16,406 nucleotides of DNA from Candidatus Magasanikbacteria bacterium RIFCSPLOWO2_02_FULL_44_11. Lineage in GTDB: Bacteria > Patescibacteriota > Patescibacteriia > Magasanikbacterales > GWA2-37-8. The translations under genes and the position numbers were made by a program. Below are positions 2,077-16,336 of the stretch, piece after piece (position 1 is the stretch's first letter; every line of letters starts with the position of its first letter). The stretch lies in contig MFQK01000034.1 in assembly GCA_001783035.1 (NCBI GenBank), positions 10,517-26,922 of the forward strand. Direction: 5' to 3'. Under the pieces are notes generated by a model. That model did no database searches. It worked only from the letters and a program-made list of their open reading frames with translations, and was not told where the DNA came from.

Positions 2077-4902
2077 CTACAGATATTTACCAGTCCAAGA
2101 TTTCTTATTCTTTTTGATATCCGCGGGAATGCCTTGGGCCACGATTTCACCGCCGCCTTTGCCGCCTTCCGGCCCCATATCGATCACCCAATCCGACGAC
2201 CGAATAACATCGAGATTATGTTCAATCACCAGCACCGAATTGCCCTTGGCCACCAACTGGGAAAGCACCTGGAGCAACCGTTTCGTATCTTCAAAATGGA
2301 GACCAGTGGTTGGCTCGTCCAAAATATATAAAGTATTGCCAGTTGAAACGCGAGATAATTCTTGCGCCAATTTTATACGCTGCGCCTCACCGCCGGAAAT
2401 CGTCGTGGCCGGCTGGCCGAGTTCCACATAACCTAAGCCCACTTCGCGCAAGACATTTAACTTTTCCGCAATCGAAGGAAATTCCACGAAAAACGTATAC
2501 GCTTCTTCTACCGTCATTTTCAAAACATCGGCAATATGTTTGTTGTGATATTTAATTTCCAACGCTTCCTGGTTATAACGCAAACCGCTACATTCATTAC
2601 ACTCGACAAACACATCCGCTAAAAACTGCATCGGGATACGGACATAGCCTTCACCGGCACAGGCTTCACAACGTCCGCCTTTGACGTTGAAACTAAACTT
2701 GCCGGCATCATAACCGCGCATGCGCGCTTCGGTAAGAGAGGAAAATAAATCACGGATCAAGGTGAACACGCCCGTGTAAGTCGCGGGGTTGGAACGAGGC
2801 GTGCGGCCAATCGGCGATTGGTCGATGGTGATGACTTTATCAATATTCGCCACACCTTTAATACTTTTATGCGAACCGGGTTCATCTTTGGCGCGATAAA
2901 AATATTTAGCGAGCGCTTTACCCAAAATATCTATAATCAACGTCGACTTACCGGAGCCGGACACGCCGGTCACCGCCACCAATTTCTGAAGAGGAATTTC
3001 CACCTCAATATTTTTCAAATTAAAAGCCTTCGCGCCAGTGATAACCAACGATTTTGGCGCGGACTTTTTCTTATCAGTCGATTTTTTCTTAAAGGTCTTC
3101 CGAAATTCTTCGGCAATGTCGATGCGACCGCTTAAATATTCCGCGGTCAGCGATTTTTTACTTTTCTTAAATTCGGCGAGCGTGCCGGCGGCAATAATTT
3201 CACCGCCGTAGACCCCGGCGCCCGGGCCGACGTCAATCACATAATCAGCCTGCTCCATCATGGCCGGATCATGCTCGACCACGATAACCGAATTTCCCAA
3301 ATCACGCAGATATTTCAACGTGTTGATCAATTTGTCGTTATCGCGGGGATGCAAACCAACCGATGGTTCATCCAATATATAGATAATGCCGGTCAAACCC
3401 GCCGACAATTGGCTTGCCAGCCGCACACGGGTCACTTCACCGCCCGAAAGGGTGTTCATTGAACGGCTCAAATGCAAATAACCCAAACCAACCTGATCCA
3501 AATTTTCCAAACGCGGTGTAATCTCGCGCACGATTGGCTCCACAATTTTCGATTGCGCATTTTTGGAAAGATCATTTCCCTTGGCGAATATTTTTTTGAG
3601 TAACACGATACTTTCTTCCACACTCATCGCCGCCACATCGGAAATCGTGTACTCCCCTATCCGGACAGCGAGCGATTCGACGCGCAACCGCTTGCCCTGA
3701 CAAATCGGACAAATACGTTCGCGCATATATTGTTCGATCTCCTTGCGTACATATTCGGAATTGGTTTCCAAATGTTTTTGCATCAAATCGGGAATTACGC
3801 CGGGGAAAGTTGCTTTTTTGTTATCCACTTCAAACTTCTCGTCGCCGCTACCATACAAAACAATATCGAGCGTCTTTGACGGCAATTCGCTGACCGGCGT
3901 CGAAACTGAAAAATTAAACTTTTCCGCGACCTTGACCAGAATTTTTTGATACCAACTTTGATTGCCGGTAATCCTAGTCCAGGGCTGGATAGCGCCTTCC
4001 GCCAACGTTAATTTATTATTCGGAATAACCAGACTCGGGTCAACTTCCATGGTCACGCCCAGACCGGTACAGCGCGGGCACGCGCCATACGGACTATTAA
4101 AACTGAAGCTGCGCATATCGAGCGAGGGCATGGTGCGACCACAACTCGGACATAAACCAATCGTCGAGAACAATTTCTGTCCACCGTCGCTTTCAACTTT
4201 CACCAAACCGTTCGACAAATCCGCCGCCACCTCGACCGCTTTGGTAGGATCTTCTTTTTTGATGTTAATTATTTTGCCGATCAACAGGTCAACATTATAC
4301 TTATTATTTTCCGCGAAATCAAACTCCAACAATTGATTTATTTTCATCATGGCACCATCCACCGACACCCATTCATAACCCGACTTCTCAACTTTTTCCA
4401 CCAATTCTTTTTTGCTGACTTTTTCGCCGCGCACTAATGGTGAAAATATTTTGACTTCTTTATTTTTGCGAGCAATTTCACGAGCCCGCTCCACGATTTC
4501 GCCGGTCGAATAAATTTTCACGGCCACATGGCACTCCGGACAGTACTGCGTACCGACGCGCGCGAAAAGCAGTCGGAAGTAATCATAAATTTCCGTAACG
4601 GTACCGACCGTCGAACGCGGGTTTTGCGTGGAAACTTTTTGATCAATGGCAATGGTCGGCGACAAACCGTCGATCGCGTCGACGTCGGGTTTGTCTTGCA
4701 CGTCCATAAACTGGCGCGCGAACGAGGACATCGATTCGGCGTAACGGCGTTGGCCTTCGGCGTAAATCGTATCAAAAGCCAAACTAGACTTACCGGAGCC
4801 CGACAAACCGGTCACGACGACCAGTTTATTTTTCGGGATTTCAAGAGAAATGTTTTTTAAGTTGTGCACGCGCGCACCTTTGATAATTATTTTGTCGTGC
4901 AT
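2077..4902 (-). CDS. uvrA: UvrA, excinuclease ABC ATPase subunit
   Basis: UvrA is the damage-sensing ATPase of nucleotide excision repair. It works as a dimer in the cytoplasm and loads UvrB on lesions. This protein has 941 aa, the usual length, with two ABC modules. The first has Walker A GLSGSGKS at 32-39, signature LSGGE at 485-489 and Walker B ILDEP at 509-513. The second has Walker A GVSGSGKS at 646-653, the C-terminal zinc finger with Cys at 745, 748, 768 and 771, ISGGE at 835-839 and ILDEP at 860-864. Further CxxC pairs near 121, 251, 275 and 398 belong to the insertion domains. The start chosen is ATG at 4902. A TTG two codons upstream is possible. No SD is visible. The gene begins 36 nt after the pilin-like gene on the same strand, so co-transcription is likely. 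uvrB and uvrC are not in the window. Confidence 0.98.
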
Positions 4903-4938
4903 ACGCAAAGTACGTAAAAGTACTGTAGCCTATCACAA

Positions 4939-6384
4939 TCACAGAGACTTGTAAACATCCCAACCTGCCGACGACTCAATATGATAAACTTTGTCGGCAC
5001 TAATGTCCATTATCACACTTTTTATTTCACTGTGAGGAATAAAATACTTTTCCAGATTTTTAGCGTCTATCATTTGTTTTACTTGCGAAAAGGATGCTGA
5101 CTTACCGTTAATAGGGAAATAATCATCGGGTCCAAGATCAATCCCGACCCTGCCTATACGGCCGATAACGTGCGTTTGGTCGTTTGGATTGCAATTCTTT
5201 TGCATTTCAAATGTTAAAACAAAACCGAGCACATTATCACTCCCGCATTTATTAGCGGTTTCGTCAATAGCTTTTTCTTCGGCAGCAATGATATATTGTT
5301 GACCATTACCGGATTCAAGTGTTTGAGCCACGGCCGACTGCACCTCATGATTTGAACCATTTTTACAAATAACCCACAATTCTTGTTCGCCGGGGTCGGT
5401 GGGGTCGGGGCTCTGCCAACCACGCGTCGCCGAAATACCGGGGGCAACCATTGCCAAACAATCGCTGGTATCAATAAGCAGATGCACTGGAGGAAAAATA
5501 TTTCCAATCACGGTCCCTTTTTTACAATCGTACGGATTCTGCTTCACCGTATCCTTATTACGTGTACTTCCTTTATCGTCAAAATTGGCGCAGACAAACC
5601 CTTTGCCGCAAACATTGCCAAAGCAGGCGCGGTCGCCGCCTTTTTCCATATAAAAACGGCTGCCACAGTCAAAAACTGATTGATCATTAATTTGGTCATA
5701 CTTGATGTCGTAGGAAATAGACTCGGTCATGGCGATGGTTTTAGTTTGTTCTTCCTTGCCAGCTACCTTAAAAAAAGCAGTGGTCGACGGCGCGGCCATG
5801 CAAAATTGCGGGATCATAGGTTGCGGACGAACCATCCAAGTTTGCGGCAAACGCAAATTTACCAGATTAGGGCTAATGGTCTGTAAAATAAAGTAAGACG
5901 TGTAAGCAATAAACAAACCGATCAACGCTCCGCCAATGCGAGTCTTCGCGCTCGAGATCGCTTCAGAATTTCCGCCCGATGTCACCCACTGAAAACCGGC
6001 CACAATAATCATGACCACAGCGATAATGGCGGCAATACTCAAAACATAATTGTAATTACTCTGGATAAAATCGCCGATGTTAATAAATTCTCGTTTGCCG
6101 CCGAAAGCAATCATGGTTTTGGCGGTGCTGGCCGGTAAACATTTGCCCCAGTCCCCGCTGGCGCACGGTTCTTCTTGCTTAAAACCTTCAGCCACATGTA
6201 CTTTTTCAGCATCAGTTAATTTTTCGTATGATCTGCCATTAGCAAATAATTTAGCGCGGATGTCCAAGCATTGTTGTTTACGCCAGCATAAATTATTAAA
6301 TTCCGGTATCGTTTCCTCCGCCAAAACCGACACTGGCGCCAGTAACATTATTCCAAAGATAAAAATTGCCAACAGTTTACGCAT
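4939..6384 (-). CDS. T4SS pilin-like membrane protein with Cys-rich extracellular domain
   Basis: Starting at ATG 6384, the protein has 481 aa and opens with a signal peptide ([14 protein letters not shown]... to about residue 22). Starting there places it 2 nt after the stop of the dsbA-like gene. An in-frame upstream ATG at 6423 would overlap that gene. Two membrane segments at about 113-132 and 149-170, with the short loop [21 protein letters not shown], resemble the TrbC/VirB2-type pilin domain often seen in Parcubacteria. The soluble remainder holds most of the 14 cysteines (33, 39, 74, 82, 195, 240, 254, 259, 265, 287, 309, 340, 380, 398), and their even number suggests disulfides. It may be a minor pilin or surface component of a secretion, uptake or attachment apparatus, but the exact role is unknown. 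It is much longer than a typical pilin (about 100 aa) because of the C-terminal domain of about 310 residues. Confidence 0.8.
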
Positions 6385-6386
6385 AC

Positions 6387-7142
6387 CTATTTCTTTAAAA
6401 CCGCGTTTAAATATTTTTGCCAAGCTTCAAACGGCACCACACCCTCGACACGCTCGCCGTTAATAAAAAAAGTCGGTGTACCGGCCACGCCAAACCGCGC
6501 TCCATCCAAATAATCTTGTTTCACTTCTTTAATAATTTCCGGCGATATCACGCATTGCCGCAACAAGGTATTATCCAGACCGCCCAGCAACGCCAATTGC
6601 TCCAAATCGGTAGCCGACAAAACCTCCGGCAAAAAGTCCTGCTGACTGAAAAGCACGTCATACATTTGCCAATAGCGTCCTTGGCGGCCGGCACATTCCG
6701 CCACCTGCGCTAAAAACGTCGCGCCGGGATGTAATGTTTCGGGAGGGAAATCACGAATAATTACTTTAACGCCATAACCATATCTTTCCGCCACTCGCTT
6801 CAAAATCGGAGCGGCCTGACGACAATTCGGACATTTATAATCCCAAAAAGCCACGATAACAACCGGTGCGTTTATCCGACCAAGAAAAGGATCGTCGCTG
6901 GTTTCAAGCTGTCGGCGGTCAACAAGCTTGGCCGCGGCCACCGAAGTCTTTAGCGCTGTAAATTGGCTATAATGCTCCTGTATAAACGCCGGCTCCAATC
7001 CGTTACGCAGCTGCCACCAATAGCGAATGGTCGTAACCAGAACCATTCCAAAAAAAAGAGCAACGAAGAATCCCAAGATAATAATAACTTTACCCCAAAC
7101 ACTGGTGTACCACCGGCGGGGATTGATGCTGTTAAGATCCAT
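6387..7142 (-). CDS. membrane-anchored DsbA-family thiol oxidoreductase
   Basis: This 251-aa protein has an N-terminal membrane anchor at about residues 17-38, so the catalytic domain faces outside. The thioredoxin-fold domain begins near residue 83 (DPFLGRINAPVVIVAFWDYKCPNC). The active site is Cys104-Pro-Asn-Cys107 and the cis-Pro loop is GTPTFFINGE (Pro223). This is the layout of the DsbA-like/Thioredoxin_4 group, which forms or isomerises disulfides in exported proteins. Two extra Cys (150, 197) may form a structural bond. The gene directly precedes the 14-Cys pilin-like gene, a probable substrate. No VKOR or DsbB partner is present in the window. A candidate promoter lies at 7176-7204, and no SD is visible. 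Confidence 0.92.
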   Translation of the reverse strand: MDLNSINPRRWYTSVWGKVIIILGFFVALFFGMVLVTTIRYWWQLRNGLEPAFIQEHYSQFTALKTSVAAAKLVDRRQLETSDDPFLGRINAPVVIVAFWDYKCPNCRQAAPILKRVAERYGYGVKVIIRDFPPETLHPGATFLAQVAECAGRQGRYWQMYDVLFSQQDFLPEVLSATDLEQLALLGGLDNTLLRQCVISPEIIKEVKQDYLDGARFGVAGTPTFFINGERVEGVVPFEAWQKYLNAVLKK

Positions 7143-9512: not shown

Positions 9513-9597
9513 GCGGACGTGGCGGAACTGGTATACGCGTACGTCTCAGAAGCGTATGGAGCAATCCTTGAGGGTTCGAGTCCCTCCGTCCGCACCA
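9513..9597 (+). tRNA. tRNA-Leu (anticodon CAG)
   Basis: This 85-nt type II tRNA has a 7-bp acceptor stem GCGGACG/CGTCCGC, a T-arm GAGGG-TTCGAGT-CCCTC, a long variable arm, and the anticodon loop CTCAGAA with anticodon CAG at 9547-9549, which reads CUG. The discriminator A and the CCA end (9595-9597) are encoded. It starts 31 nt after the solute-binding protein gene. A small GTCGG/CCGAC stem at 9482-9502 lies between them, with no separate promoter visible. Confidence 0.97.
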
Positions 9598-11838: not shown

Positions 11839-13686
11839 ATGTCGACACCCGACCAAAATCACACAAAAAAAACCGTGGATGTTTTGTCCACCATCAACGA
11901 GTATCTTGATCGCAGCGATTGGCGTGTCAACGCCAATTCTAACCAAGGGTTCTCAATCGGCGGCATGATCCTCAACACAGCCGGCAAAGTCACGGCTAAT
12001 TACTGGTTATCGGAAATTTATCCGGCACAGATCGGCGAAGCGCACCGCGGCGGAGACCTGCACATTCATGATCTCGATATGCTTTCCGGCTACTGCGCCG
12101 GTTGGAGCTTGCGAGTGCTCCTCGAAGAAGGTTTTAACGGCGTTCCGGATAAAATCGAATCTGGTCCGCCGAAACACCTATCGTCAGCGGTTGCCCAGAT
12201 GATTAATTTTTTAGGCACCCTCCAAAACGAATGGGCCGGAGCACAGGCTTTTTCCAGCTTCGACACCTATCTCGCGCCATTTGTAAAAAAATACGAACTC
12301 GAAATCCGCGAAAAAATTTCCGCCTACGGTTTGCAATTTCCATCTGAAGCCGAAAAAGAAACCTACGTCGATGATGAAATTTACAACTACGTTCACCAAA
12401 ACATGCAGTCGTTCGTGTTTAATATGAACATTCCCTCGCGCTGGGGAACACAAACGCCTTTTACCAATATTACACTGGATTGGGACTGTCCTGCCGACCT
12501 TAAAGAAAAGCGTTTGCTCCTGGGCGGTAAACCATTCGACTTCACCTTTGGCGAATTGGGTAAGGAAATGGCGGTAATCAATCGCGCTTTCATCGAAGTC
12601 ATGACTAAAGGCGACGCCAAAGGACGGAGTTTTACTTTTCCGATTCCGACCTATAATATCGGCAAAGATTTTAAGTGGGATGACCCGAATAACTTACCAC
12701 TTTTTGAAATGACGGCAAAATATGGCACGCCATATTTCCAAAATTTCATCAATTCCGACTTAAACCCGGGCGATGTACGTTCCATGTGCTGCCGGCTCCA
12801 ACTCGATATGAAAGAACTGCGCAAACGCGGTGGCGGACTCTTCGGATCAGCCGAAATGACCGGTTCAATCGGCGTGGTGACCATTAATTCCGCTCGCATT
12901 GGTTATGTCTACAAAGGCGACAAAACCGGCTTTTTCAACCGGATAGGCCAACTGATGGATATGTCCAAGGACGCTCTGGAAATAAAGCGCAAAATGGTCC
13001 AAGCCTGGATTCACGGCGGATTATACCCGTTCACCAAACGTTATCTCGGCTTTCTTAAAAATCATTTTTCAACGATTGGCATCAACGGTCTCAACGAAGC
13101 TATCCGCAATTTTACCAATGACACGGAGAATATTAGCACGCCGGTCGGCCAGCAATTCGCGGAGGAAGTGCTAATTTTCATGCGCGAAAAATTACAACAA
13201 TACCAAACCGAAACCCGTAATTTATACAATCTCGAAGCAACTCCGGCTGAAGGCGCGACCTACCGCTTTGCTAAAGAGGACCAAAAAAGATATACCGGAA
13301 TTTTCCAGGCTGGCACAAACGAAGCGCCCTACTATACCAATTCATCGCAAATTCCCGTTGGCTACACCGATGACGTTTTCGAAGCGCTTATGCTCCAGGA
13401 TAAACTCCAAACCAAATATACCGGCGGGACCGTTCTCCATTGTTATATGAATGAACGCATCACCAGCGCCGAAGCCTGCCGAAATCTGGTCCGGAAAATT
13501 TTGTCCAATTTCCGCCTGCCGTACATTACCATCACGCCGACCTTTTCAATCTGCCCGACACATGGTTATCTCGCCGGTGAATATGATTTTTGTCCGCGTT
13601 GCGACGCCGAAAACAACCTGAAGAACGAACCGCGCTTCGACATGACCTTACGCGAAAAGCACAAGAGTTTAACTCCTCAGCTTTAA
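11839..13686 (+). CDS. nrdD: anaerobic ribonucleoside-triphosphate reductase, catalytic part without glycyl-radical domain
   Basis: Class III ribonucleotide reductase makes deoxyribonucleotides without oxygen, using a glycyl radical installed by NrdG. This protein has 615 aa and no N-terminal ATP-cone. The active-site core is present: HIHDLDMLSGYCAG with Cys86, and DVRSMCCRL with Cys317/318 as the probable thiyl-radical site. The C-terminus has the zinc region in altered form, CPTHG (572-576) and CPRC (585-588), with His575 where the usual CPxCG has Cys. The protein then stops after about 27 unrelated residues. The RVxGY glycyl-radical motif that should follow is missing and is encoded by the next ORF, 22 nt downstream in another frame. 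The gene opens an operon with that ORF, nrdG, a 38-aa ORF and D-lactate dehydrogenase. Confidence 0.96.
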   Translation: MSTPDQNHTKKTVDVLSTINEYLDRSDWRVNANSNQGFSIGGMILNTAGKVTANYWLSEIYPAQIGEAHRGGDLHIHDLDMLSGYCAGWSLRVLLEEGFNGVPDKIESGPPKHLSSAVAQMINFLGTLQNEWAGAQAFSSFDTYLAPFVKKYELEIREKISAYGLQFPSEAEKETYVDDEIYNYVHQNMQSFVFNMNIPSRWGTQTPFTNITLDWDCPADLKEKRLLLGGKPFDFTFGELGKEMAVINRAFIEVMTKGDAKGRSFTFPIPTYNIGKDFKWDDPNNLPLFEMTAKYGTPYFQNFINSDLNPGDVRSMCCRLQLDMKELRKRGGGLFGSAEMTGSIGVVTINSARIGYVYKGDKTGFFNRIGQLMDMSKDALEIKRKMVQAWIHGGLYPFTKRYLGFLKNHFSTIGINGLNEAIRNFTNDTENISTPVGQQFAEEVLIFMREKLQQYQTETRNLYNLEATPAEGATYRFAKEDQKRYTGIFQAGTNEAPYYTNSSQIPVGYTDDVFEALMLQDKLQTKYTGGTVLHCYMNERITSAEACRNLVRKILSNFRLPYITITPTFSICPTHGYLAGEYDFCPRCDAENNLKNEPRFDMTLREKHKSLTPQL

Positions 13687-13708
13687 TTATTATTAAACAT
13701 TCAACCAT

Positions 13709-13912
13709 ATGGAAAATTGTCCGCCCAACAAACGAACGCGTTGCGAAGTCTGGACCCGTGTGATGGGGTATCATCGTCCACTCTCGCATTTCAATATCGG
13801 CAAAAAATCGGAACATATCTCTCGTAAGCATTTTACGGAATGCACGGCAGCCAATAGTATTTTCGTCAAAAAATACGCCGGCCAACTTCTCTACACCGTG
13901 GCGCCTCGTTAA
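13709..13912 (+). CDS. stand-alone glycyl-radical domain of class III ribonucleotide reductase
   Basis: This encodes 67 aa. Residues 12-33 (CEVWTRVMGYHRP, then FNIGKK) match the C-terminal glycyl-radical loop of NrdD. Gly20 in RVMGY corresponds by motif to Gly681 of E. coli NrdD. The N-terminus adds Cys4 and Cys12, which might complete the zinc site of the large subunit. A tail of about 30 residues follows the usual motif. NrdG should activate this Gly, and the peptide must dock on the 615-aa subunit to work. The arrangement recalls the stand-alone glycyl-radical protein YfiD/GrcA that repairs pyruvate formate-lyase. It is not a simple frameshift: the frame differs from nrdD, a stop in its own frame lies just upstream (13694-13696), and it has its own ATG. 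It ends 5 nt before nrdG. Confidence 0.9.
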   Translation: MENCPPNKRTRCEVWTRVMGYHRPLSHFNIGKKSEHISRKHFTECTAANSIFVKKYAGQLLYTVAPR

Positions 13913-13917
13913 GATCT

Positions 13918-14619
13918 ATGCTGATCAGCGGCATACAACCGTTCACGCTGCTTGATTATCCGAACAAAACCTCCTGTATTGTTTTTGTTCCCGGTTGTAA
14001 TTTTCGCTGCGGCTACTGCCACAATCCGGAATTTGTCCTGCCGGAACGGTTGAAATTATTACAAAAAGACTTTATCAACGAGGACGCGCTCTTCAATTTT
14101 TTATTGCAACGCCGCGAATTACTAGATGGAGTAGTGATTTCTGGTGGCGAACCGACACTCGCCCCCGATCTTATTCCCTTTATGCAAAAAATACGGCGAC
14201 TTGGTTTTTCGATAAAACTCGACACCAATGGCAACCGTCCGGAAATAATTTCCAAAGCCCTGGAAGAACGAGTGGTCGATTATATCGCTATGGATGTTAA
14301 AGCCAGTCTGGAAGGCTATCGTGATTTAGTCGGACCGCTTATCAGACCGGACAACATCCAAAAAAGCATCGAGCTCATAAAAAACAGCAGCGTCCATTAC
14401 GAATTTCGTTCCACCTTACTTAAAGAGGTGCATTCTGCTATAATGCTCGAGAAGATGGCGAATTTGATAAAAGGAGCCAGACATTGGTTTCTCCAAAAAT
14501 TTCGCCCGGAAAATACTTTATCACCTCTTTTTGCAAACTACAACTCGTTTAGCGACCAAGAATTAGCCGACATCGCCGAACACTTCCGCGACCGCGTAAA
14601 TCGTATTTCTATTCGTTAA
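13918..14619 (+). CDS. nrdG: anaerobic ribonucleotide reductase activating protein (radical SAM)
   Basis: NrdG uses a 4Fe-4S cluster and S-adenosylmethionine to form the glycyl radical of NrdD. This protein has 233 aa. The cluster motif CNFRCGYC places Cys at 27, 31 and 34, and the SAM-binding GGE occurs in VVISGGEPTL. The opening ISGIQPFTLLDYPNKTSCIVF is typical of the NrdG2-type activases. The start is the ATG 5 nt after the glycyl-domain ORF, with no SD, so translational coupling is likely. Its probable substrate is the small separate glycyl subunit rather than a full-length NrdD. Confidence 0.95.
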   Translation: MLISGIQPFTLLDYPNKTSCIVFVPGCNFRCGYCHNPEFVLPERLKLLQKDFINEDALFNFLLQRRELLDGVVISGGEPTLAPDLIPFMQKIRRLGFSIKLDTNGNRPEIISKALEERVVDYIAMDVKASLEGYRDLVGPLIRPDNIQKSIELIKNSSVHYEFRSTLLKEVHSAIMLEKMANLIKGARHWFLQKFRPENTLSPLFANYNSFSDQELADIAEHFRDRVNRISIR

Positions 14620-15874: not shown

Positions 15875-15888
15875 TCCTCACTCATTTC

Positions 15889-16330
15889 GTTTATAGCTAT
15901 AAGCCGAATTTTGTTCCTTGCCCTGGCGGACAAGTGATAATCATTTCTCTAGCCCGGCCATTACTGACCGAATCATAATGCGAGCGAACTTTTCCAAACG
16001 CTTATCGCGTAAGGCTGCTCTTGCACCAGGTAGGGTTTAGCACTGGCTCGCTCTTGCGAACGAGTCGAGTATGGTAGCTCTGGTCTCGAGAACCACAACT
16101 TCCATACACTTTTCACCTTTCGCGAGCAATAGAAATTGCGAGCAGTCGCCTCTGGCGACCATCGTACTTCTAAACTCACTAGTATTGTCTCTGTGCCACT
16201 TTCCCGCCACCGACATCACTGCCGGCAGGGTGGGTATTACCCACTGCCTTTGACTCAGCGATTACTCACTGAGGGTGTTCGGACTTTCCTCCAACCGCAC
16301 CGAAGCGACAGGCGATTATCCACTATAAAC
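15889..16330 (-). ncRNA. rnpB: RNase P RNA (type A-like)
   Basis: This is the catalytic RNA that trims the 5' leader of tRNA precursors. On the minus strand, GGAGGAAAGTCCG near the 5' end and ACAAAATTCGGCTTATAG near the 3' end are the two halves of conserved region P4. In between are GGGAAAGTGGCACAGAGA, AAGGTGAAAAG and GCTAAACCCTACCTGGTGCAAG, all in the expected order. The ends pair as helix P1, GTTTATAG with CTATAAAC (8 bp). The length is about 442 nt, somewhat above the usual 350-400. Small ORFs on both strands here are artefacts. Confidence 0.97.
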
Positions 16331-16336
16331 ACCAAT

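Follow-up and report, generated by a model that had tools for sequence, protein, structure and literature searches.

In the class III ribonucleotide reductases (RNRs) of the searched literature, as far as its available text goes, the enzyme is a homodimer with the glycyl-radical domain (GRD) in the same chain. The window analysed here, a stretch of 16,406 nucleotides from Candidatus Magasanikbacteria bacterium RIFCSPLOWO2_02_FULL_44_11 (contig MFQK01000034.1), departs from this arrangement, in that its nrdD gene ends before the GRD, which is found on a separate small open reading frame (ORF) downstream. The question which this locus raises is whether the two ORFs are the debris of a broken gene, the two halves of one recoded protein or the genes of a genuine two-subunit enzyme and, if the last, what might be gained by the separation. 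From the evidence below, a working class III RNR composed of two different chains, NrdD and the 67-residue GRD protein, is very probable.

Organisation of the locus

The features are collected in Table 1. The NrdD matches NF006126/PRK08270 (E 1.4e-296) and TIGR02487 (445.9 bits, against a cut-off of 326), and in a profile search it aligns with positions 2-532 of the 562 in PF13597 (E 2.1e-171), such that the C-terminal part of the family is missing and RVxGY is absent from the 615-residue ORF. That missing part is supplied by the 67-residue ORF, which is a GRD only and covers positions 523-562 of PF13597 (E 9.6e-8; 31.6 bits, gathering score 26.2). No other family is matched by the small ORF at E values up to 1, the PFL-type Gly_radical family being among those not matched, and no PDB sequence is matched at E up to 10. 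An earlier note on this DNA, which had proposed a split NrdD with its GRD on a gene of its own, is thus borne out, as is its account of the reading frames: the ORFs lie in frames 1 and 2, nrdD stops at TAA 13684-13686 and a second TAA (13694-13696) precedes the small ORF in the frame of the latter, within a spacing of 22 nt. Gly20, which the note had named as the radical site, lies in RVMGY and is invariant in 17 small GRDs chosen for alignment, as are R9, C12, R17, Y21, R23, P24, N29, G31, K32, E35 and R39. On the NrdD side, Cys317/Cys318 of the MCCR motif are taken here to be the finger-loop radical cysteine.

The zinc site calls for a different reading from that of the note, which had seen it as altered and possibly completed between the subunits. 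Its C..HGY...C..C pattern is the usual form, found in 40 of the 42 split NrdDs of the survey (the other two being a masked sequence and a distant NrdD) and in 30 of the 37 fused ones. Sharing of the zinc between subunits finds no support, the pattern being complete within the split NrdDs.

The host genome (983 kb in 56 contigs, 95% complete) contains a single GRD match and also encodes, on another contig, a large subunit of class I/II type. In an Rfam scan of the window no RNA was found near the nrdD/GRD pair, the only hits being the RNase P RNA and one tRNA. Judged by lengths and alignment ends, the N-terminal ATP-cone seen in relatives of ~710 residues is absent here (11839-11900), and likewise in the split NrdDs of loci L004, L008 and L114.

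Table 1. Coordinates of the features in the window and, in the last row, of the corresponding ORFs of Cupriavidus necator H16
Feature	Position	Strand	Remarks
nrdD, class III RNR catalytic subunit without GRD	11839..13686	+	615 aa, frame 1
Finger-loop motif M316-C317-C318-R319 (MCCR)	12784..12795	+	Invariant in 14 chosen aligned NrdDs
Zinc site C572-x2-H575 ... C585-x2-C588, all inside NrdD	13552..13602	+	Invariant in 14 chosen aligned NrdDs; metal binding predicted
NrdD tail after CPxC, 27 residues, first Asp	13603..13683	+	
Separate glycyl-radical subunit gene	13709..13912	+	67 aa, frame 2; PF13597 match
RVMGY, radical site Gly20 (codon 13766-13768)	13757..13771	+	R17, G20, Y21 invariant in 17 small GRDs
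nrdG2, radical-SAM activase	13918..14619	+	233 aa; TIGR02495 NrdG2 E 1.7e-55; PF04055 E 3.1e-18
RNase P RNA	15884-16331	-	Rfam
tRNA	9513-9594	+	Rfam
C. necator H16 pHG1, long ORF and short ORF	L364:374-2404 and 2547-2747		676 aa and 66 aa

Distribution of the split

A GRD match is found in 26 of 57 close relatives (family and order), a check which the earlier note had called for. Far from all being fused, in 21 of the 26 the GRD occupies a separate short frame and in five a full NrdD frame, these five belonging to another NrdD branch of the tree. At the level of the phylum, a GRD match is present in 79 of the 379 genomes sampled, and these divide into 43 split, 35 fused and one unclassed (G116); the regions of 78 genomes were read, and the 43 comprise 42 pairs of a GRD-less NrdD with a short GRD, plus the present locus.

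Beyond the phylum, the split is also present in Pseudomonadota, including C. necator H16. In a protein collection, 825 proteins of similar length match the GRD of this locus, while 1132 and 6190 of comparable length match GRDs from Campylobacter and C. necator, respectively, in sets that overlap and from which fragments are indistinguishable. Names were taken from the best 120 matches of each set: among those listed for the Campylobacter GRD are Campylobacter fetus, Aliarcobacter butzleri, Poseidonibacter and Niabella (as names of short proteins only), and among those listed for the C. necator GRD are Cupriavidus, Hydrogenophaga and Roseateles. A row of long ORF, short 'nrdD' and activase is annotated on plasmids of C. 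necator H16 (pHG1; lengths in Table 1), Sulfuricurvum kujiense (704 and 58 aa) and Bradyrhizobium ottawaense (678 and 63 aa). By the look of their sequences, C. metallidurans CH34 and Paracoccus versutus are split too; the NrdD of Acidithiobacillus ferrooxidans is fused.

In other words, the gene pair is already visible in public annotation and has gone unremarked in the searched literature. The NCBI entries for pHG1, 'ribonucleoside triphosphate reductase' followed by a short 'nrdD' and an activase, describe an identical pair, as labels only, with no account of a two-subunit enzyme found in the literature searched. No description of a separate NrdD GRD was found in the full text searched, a body which most subscription papers fall outside, nor in the available portions of PMC4390871, PMC9669993, PMC9531940, PMC3653736, PMC8683613, PMC12288474, PMC2795772, PMC3019208, PMC2864759, PMC5645315 and PMC11226230.

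This distribution also bears on the possibility of an assembly error or a decaying pseudogene in the Magasanikbacteria genome, for which a metagenome-type draft in 56 contigs gives some cause. The recurrence of the same split in relatives, in other phyla and on complete plasmids, as well as the conservation of the radical and zinc residues, makes it vanishingly improbable, and the earlier note had rightly discounted a sequence error.

Two further observations from the survey may be recorded. In six NrdD frames of 1025-1557 aa (L117, L131, L148, L153, L154 and L160) the matched parts are separated by large inserts, which are most likely inteins. In G078 a very distant type of NrdD is followed by a GRD-like short ORF (L179:3319-3528, minus strand; 26 bits), perhaps a further split.

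The glycyl-radical domain as an independent gene

It could be argued that a ribosomal frameshift or read-through of the stop joins the two ORFs into a conventional fused NrdD, all the more so with genes 22 nt apart here and overlapping at some other loci. Such recoding would be expected to favour one reading frame; among the 42 nrdD-GRD pairs, offsets 0, 1 and 2 occur 15, 13 and 14 times, with gaps of -41 to 226 nt (median 26). In L015 an intact dihydroorotate dehydrogenase gene, pyrD (3336-4448, plus strand), lies between nrdD and the GRD gene. Linkage itself may be lost, as is seen in the Campylobacteraceae, where a GRD match occurs in 84 of 150 genomes, 82 of them in short frames. Each of the 30 genomes of this family that were checked has one NrdD, from which the GRD is separated by <200 nt in 21, by ~1.6 kb in two and by at least 58 kb of the same contig in six (G472, G534, G540, G542, G546 and G556), and in one it is on another contig; in G472 and G546, the two that were read, a radical-SAM gene, read as NrdG, adjoins the distant GRD. 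Because of the even spread of frame offsets, the intervening pyrD and the unlinked genes, frameshifting and read-through are rejected, and with the in-frame stop that precedes the small ORF counting against them as well, recoding is highly improbable. The GRD is a gene of its own, independent of nrdD.

Evolution of the split

NrdD sequences were trimmed at the zinc site to give 92 cores, with L118 and L183 excluded, and the tree built from them by a quick search with no bootstrap needs five changes between split and fused forms, of which at least four are forced by starred branches. The split type of the window (WTRVMGYHRP) has five fused sisters, and a second large group of splits (YSRVVGY) is nested among other fused NrdDs. 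A single origin of all the splits is ruled out by AU tests, in which L179 and L181 were left out and the groups were named after the tree had been seen: all splits as one clade are rejected at p 4.3e-5, and the two main split groups as one at p 8e-89. By these tests the split has arisen repeatedly, although re-fusion in place of repeated fission may fit as well, with splits of both the W and Y types having Asp after CPxC.

This Asp is characteristic of the split NrdDs, being the residue after CPxC in 39 of 40 split NrdDs as opposed to one of 32 fused ones. It may reflect either convergence on a C-terminal end suited to docking or the trace of an older split with later re-fusion, and the tail itself may have a role in docking the GRD. 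A structure model was made for the linked homologue L035, as opposed to the pair of this locus. If the alignment contains no fused homologues, the fold leaves the GRD unplaced; once these are included, the GRD takes up its usual position, with Gly745 and the finger loop 419-432 at pLDDT <50, which is too low for a Gly-Cys distance to be read. The model superposes on T4 NrdD (residues 126-752 on 26-587) with an rmsd of 2.4 over 489 residues. At most, the folding is consistent with docking of the GRD.

Function and the case of Cupriavidus necator

Two genomes, G036 (one contig, 99% complete) and G029 (100%), encode a split NrdD and contain no class I/II large subunit (PF02867). The split NrdD must therefore function in these organisms.

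Further indications come from Cupriavidus. According to the available text of PMC2864759, nrdDG of C. necator H16 is essential for full denitrification, and the genes of C. metallidurans CH34 are given there as Rmet_5137 and Rmet_5139. The gene number skipped in CH34 is presumably that of the GRD ORF. In H16, RVMGY stands in the 66-residue ORF, where its glycine is Gly36; in the 676-residue ORF, residue 650 is a glycine that belongs to the zinc motif CPTHGY. It is this G650 which Siedow et al. in 1999 reportedly took as the radical glycine, from a G650A mutant. If the assignment was indeed made in this way, it is probably wrong, judging by the motifs in which the two glycines lie.

Extra glycyl-radical domains in prophages and phage contigs

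In 10 of the 30 Campylobacteraceae genomes two or three GRDs accompany the one NrdD, making 12 extra copies, and no NrdD is found near any of the 12 within up to 6 kb on each side (less at contig ends). Eleven are tied to phage genes, seven by PHROG profiles of their neighbours (terminase, tail sheath, major head, tail fibre, endolysin, tape measure or Mu-type transposase) and four by an adjacent endolysin homologue; for the remaining one (L215) the phage context was read by eye only. In seven genomes (G544, G554, G572, G574, G546, G511 and G474; loci L222, L226, L227, L228, L224, L221 and L220) the solo prophage GRD lies directly 5' of the endolysin homologue, an odd place for a gene of nucleotide metabolism.

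These extra copies and the solo GRDs of phages are together the strongest argument for a detachable subunit, one which the earlier note did not contain, and the phage GRDs are the most surprising part of the result. A scan of IMG/VR with two GRDs as queries gave 100 loci, of which 87 have a short GRD standing alone, neither NrdD nor NrdG being present in the stretch read (up to 8 kb each side), a count which describes GRD neighbourhoods, such that longer contigs may carry an NrdD elsewhere. Of the other 13, seven are cut by an end, two have an NrdD, two lie in frames of at least 200, one is fused and one has no GRD over 25 bits. At three loci (L273, L301 and L322) profile matches confirmed genes for phage structure or lysis; at L281 the one protein tested by profile gave no match. 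Seven tested solo GRDs match phrog_4132, labelled 'unknown function' in PHROGs. The phage solo GRDs at L275, L280, L308, L311, L340 and L355 have an N-terminal Cys-rich stretch. Phages also carry NrdD itself: the best 80 of 231 such loci include 52 fused, 24 called split (among them L422, a fragment whose GRD lies upstream, and L371, which is the contig of L361) and four undecided. A tblastn search of INPHARED with the GRDs of L222, which has no match, and L305, which has two weak partial ones, revealed no solo GRD of this type in isolate phage records.

It is conceivable that these phage GRDs do not serve the NrdD of the host at all, acting instead as decoys which bind and inhibit NrdD or NrdG, or serving some other glycyl-radical enzyme. 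Their place in a late or lysis region, directly 5' of endolysin in the seven Campylobacteraceae genomes, would suit such a role. Their motif, however, is of the NrdD type (PF13597), and it is whole in 86 of the 87 (75 distinct cores), an intactness partly built in by the search, which found them by exact 8-residue words, some containing the radical glycine. On balance a decoy or a foreign partner appears unlikely, if not strongly so. The reading favoured here, with less certainty than that of the two-chain enzyme, is that phages carry the GRD such that it would provide a fresh radical subunit for the host NrdD.

Proposed mechanism and comparison with known systems

In the mechanism proposed, NrdD would contribute the barrel, the finger-loop Cys317/318 and the complete zinc site, and the 67-residue protein would contribute the glycyl-radical loop, docking into NrdD non-covalently and acting in trans. 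NrdG2 would place the radical on Gly20, from which it would pass to the cysteine of the finger loop. Since oxygen cuts the chain at the radical glycine, a separate small GRD could be discarded and replaced after cleavage. Such an exchange, akin to that of YfiD/GrcA with pyruvate formate-lyase (PFL) and less certain than docking, would be the natural gain of the split, and would fit microaerophiles and phages. The earlier note had drawn the same analogy; it stands as plausible and is strengthened by the additional GRDs, unlinked to nrdD, which prophages and phage contigs carry.

Against exchange can be set a permanent heterodimer, in which the gene was split neutrally and the two chains remain tightly bound for life. 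Gene fission is a common neutral event, and in most genomes each nrdD adjoins a single GRD gene, an arrangement which fits this picture equally well. It accounts less readily for several independent splits at the same place, for a GRD far from nrdD in six of 30 genomes, for the extra GRDs of the 10 genomes with one NrdD and for the solo GRDs of phages. A permanent heterodimer is accordingly a real possibility, if a somewhat doubtful one.

The nearest likeness to an exchangeable subunit is to YfiD/GrcA and T4 Y06I, which, in the available text of PMC8683613, are also small free-standing GRDs for a larger enzyme, with a phage-borne version and a need for a radical-SAM activase. They differ in being added to a complete PFL with a GRD of its own. 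Here, NrdD has no GRD at all and the genome only one, from which it follows that the small protein is obligatory; moreover, it is of the NrdD type (PF13597) and not the PFL type. The prophage GRDs elsewhere are likewise extra to a split pair and not to a complete parent enzyme. From the same partial source, only two PFL spare parts have been validated, and others have been speculated upon.

With the fused class III RNRs (T4 NrdD, 1h7b; Prevotella copri NrdD, 8p2s; Thermotoga maritima NrdD, 4coi) the present enzyme has in common the fold, the zinc site, the RVxGY loop and NrdG, as well as the MCCR-type finger loop that occurs in part of that family; the difference is that their GRD forms the C-terminus of the same chain. 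Other RNR chains are also encoded in pieces, such as the class II NrdJ of Pseudomonas aeruginosa, as far as the accessible literature describes it, and phage RNR genes, which in the available text of PMC3653736 are divided by introns, inteins or unexplained fragmentation, none of the pieces being described there as a separate GRD. What is found here is a variant of a known enzyme, and one much wider than first supposed.

Implications

The broadest form of the proposal is that of a widespread two-subunit class III RNR with an exchangeable radical subunit, for which many phages carry the spare part to the GRD-less NrdD of their host, phrog_4132 being that part, and in which the G650 reported for C. 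necator would be a zinc-site residue and Gly36 of the 66-residue ORF the true radical glycine. As a whole, this proposal might equally turn out right or wrong. If it is true, a phage takes over or sustains anaerobic synthesis of DNA precursors by means of a 50-residue gene, and phrog_4132 gains a proposed function. A separate radical subunit is open to swapping, labelling or titration, which changes the ways in which activation, turnover and damage by oxygen may be studied. It also offers testable candidates for the question, put in the available part of PMC8683613, of whether there are spare parts beyond PFL. More practically, genome surveys which demand a full-length NrdD, or which read the radical glycine off the long ORF, misjudge many genomes.

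Two variants of the arrangement are worth recording in this regard. G330 alone, among the 379 genomes, has a fused NrdD with an additional solo GRD, a rarity which weighs against the proposal: at L172 a complete fused NrdD (3850-6117, plus strand) is followed by a second, solo GRD (6223-6504, plus strand), which includes a zinc-knuckle-like stretch of its own (NRDD positions 510-562). From its sequence this GRD is a candidate for a genuine spare part and possibly an intermediate stage towards the split; the split L166 is sister to L172 in the tree. In G364 (L114:5998-6444, plus strand) a GRD that adjoins a GRD-less NrdD is fused to a glutaredoxin domain (PF00462, E 4e-6), which hints at redox coupling of the GRD.
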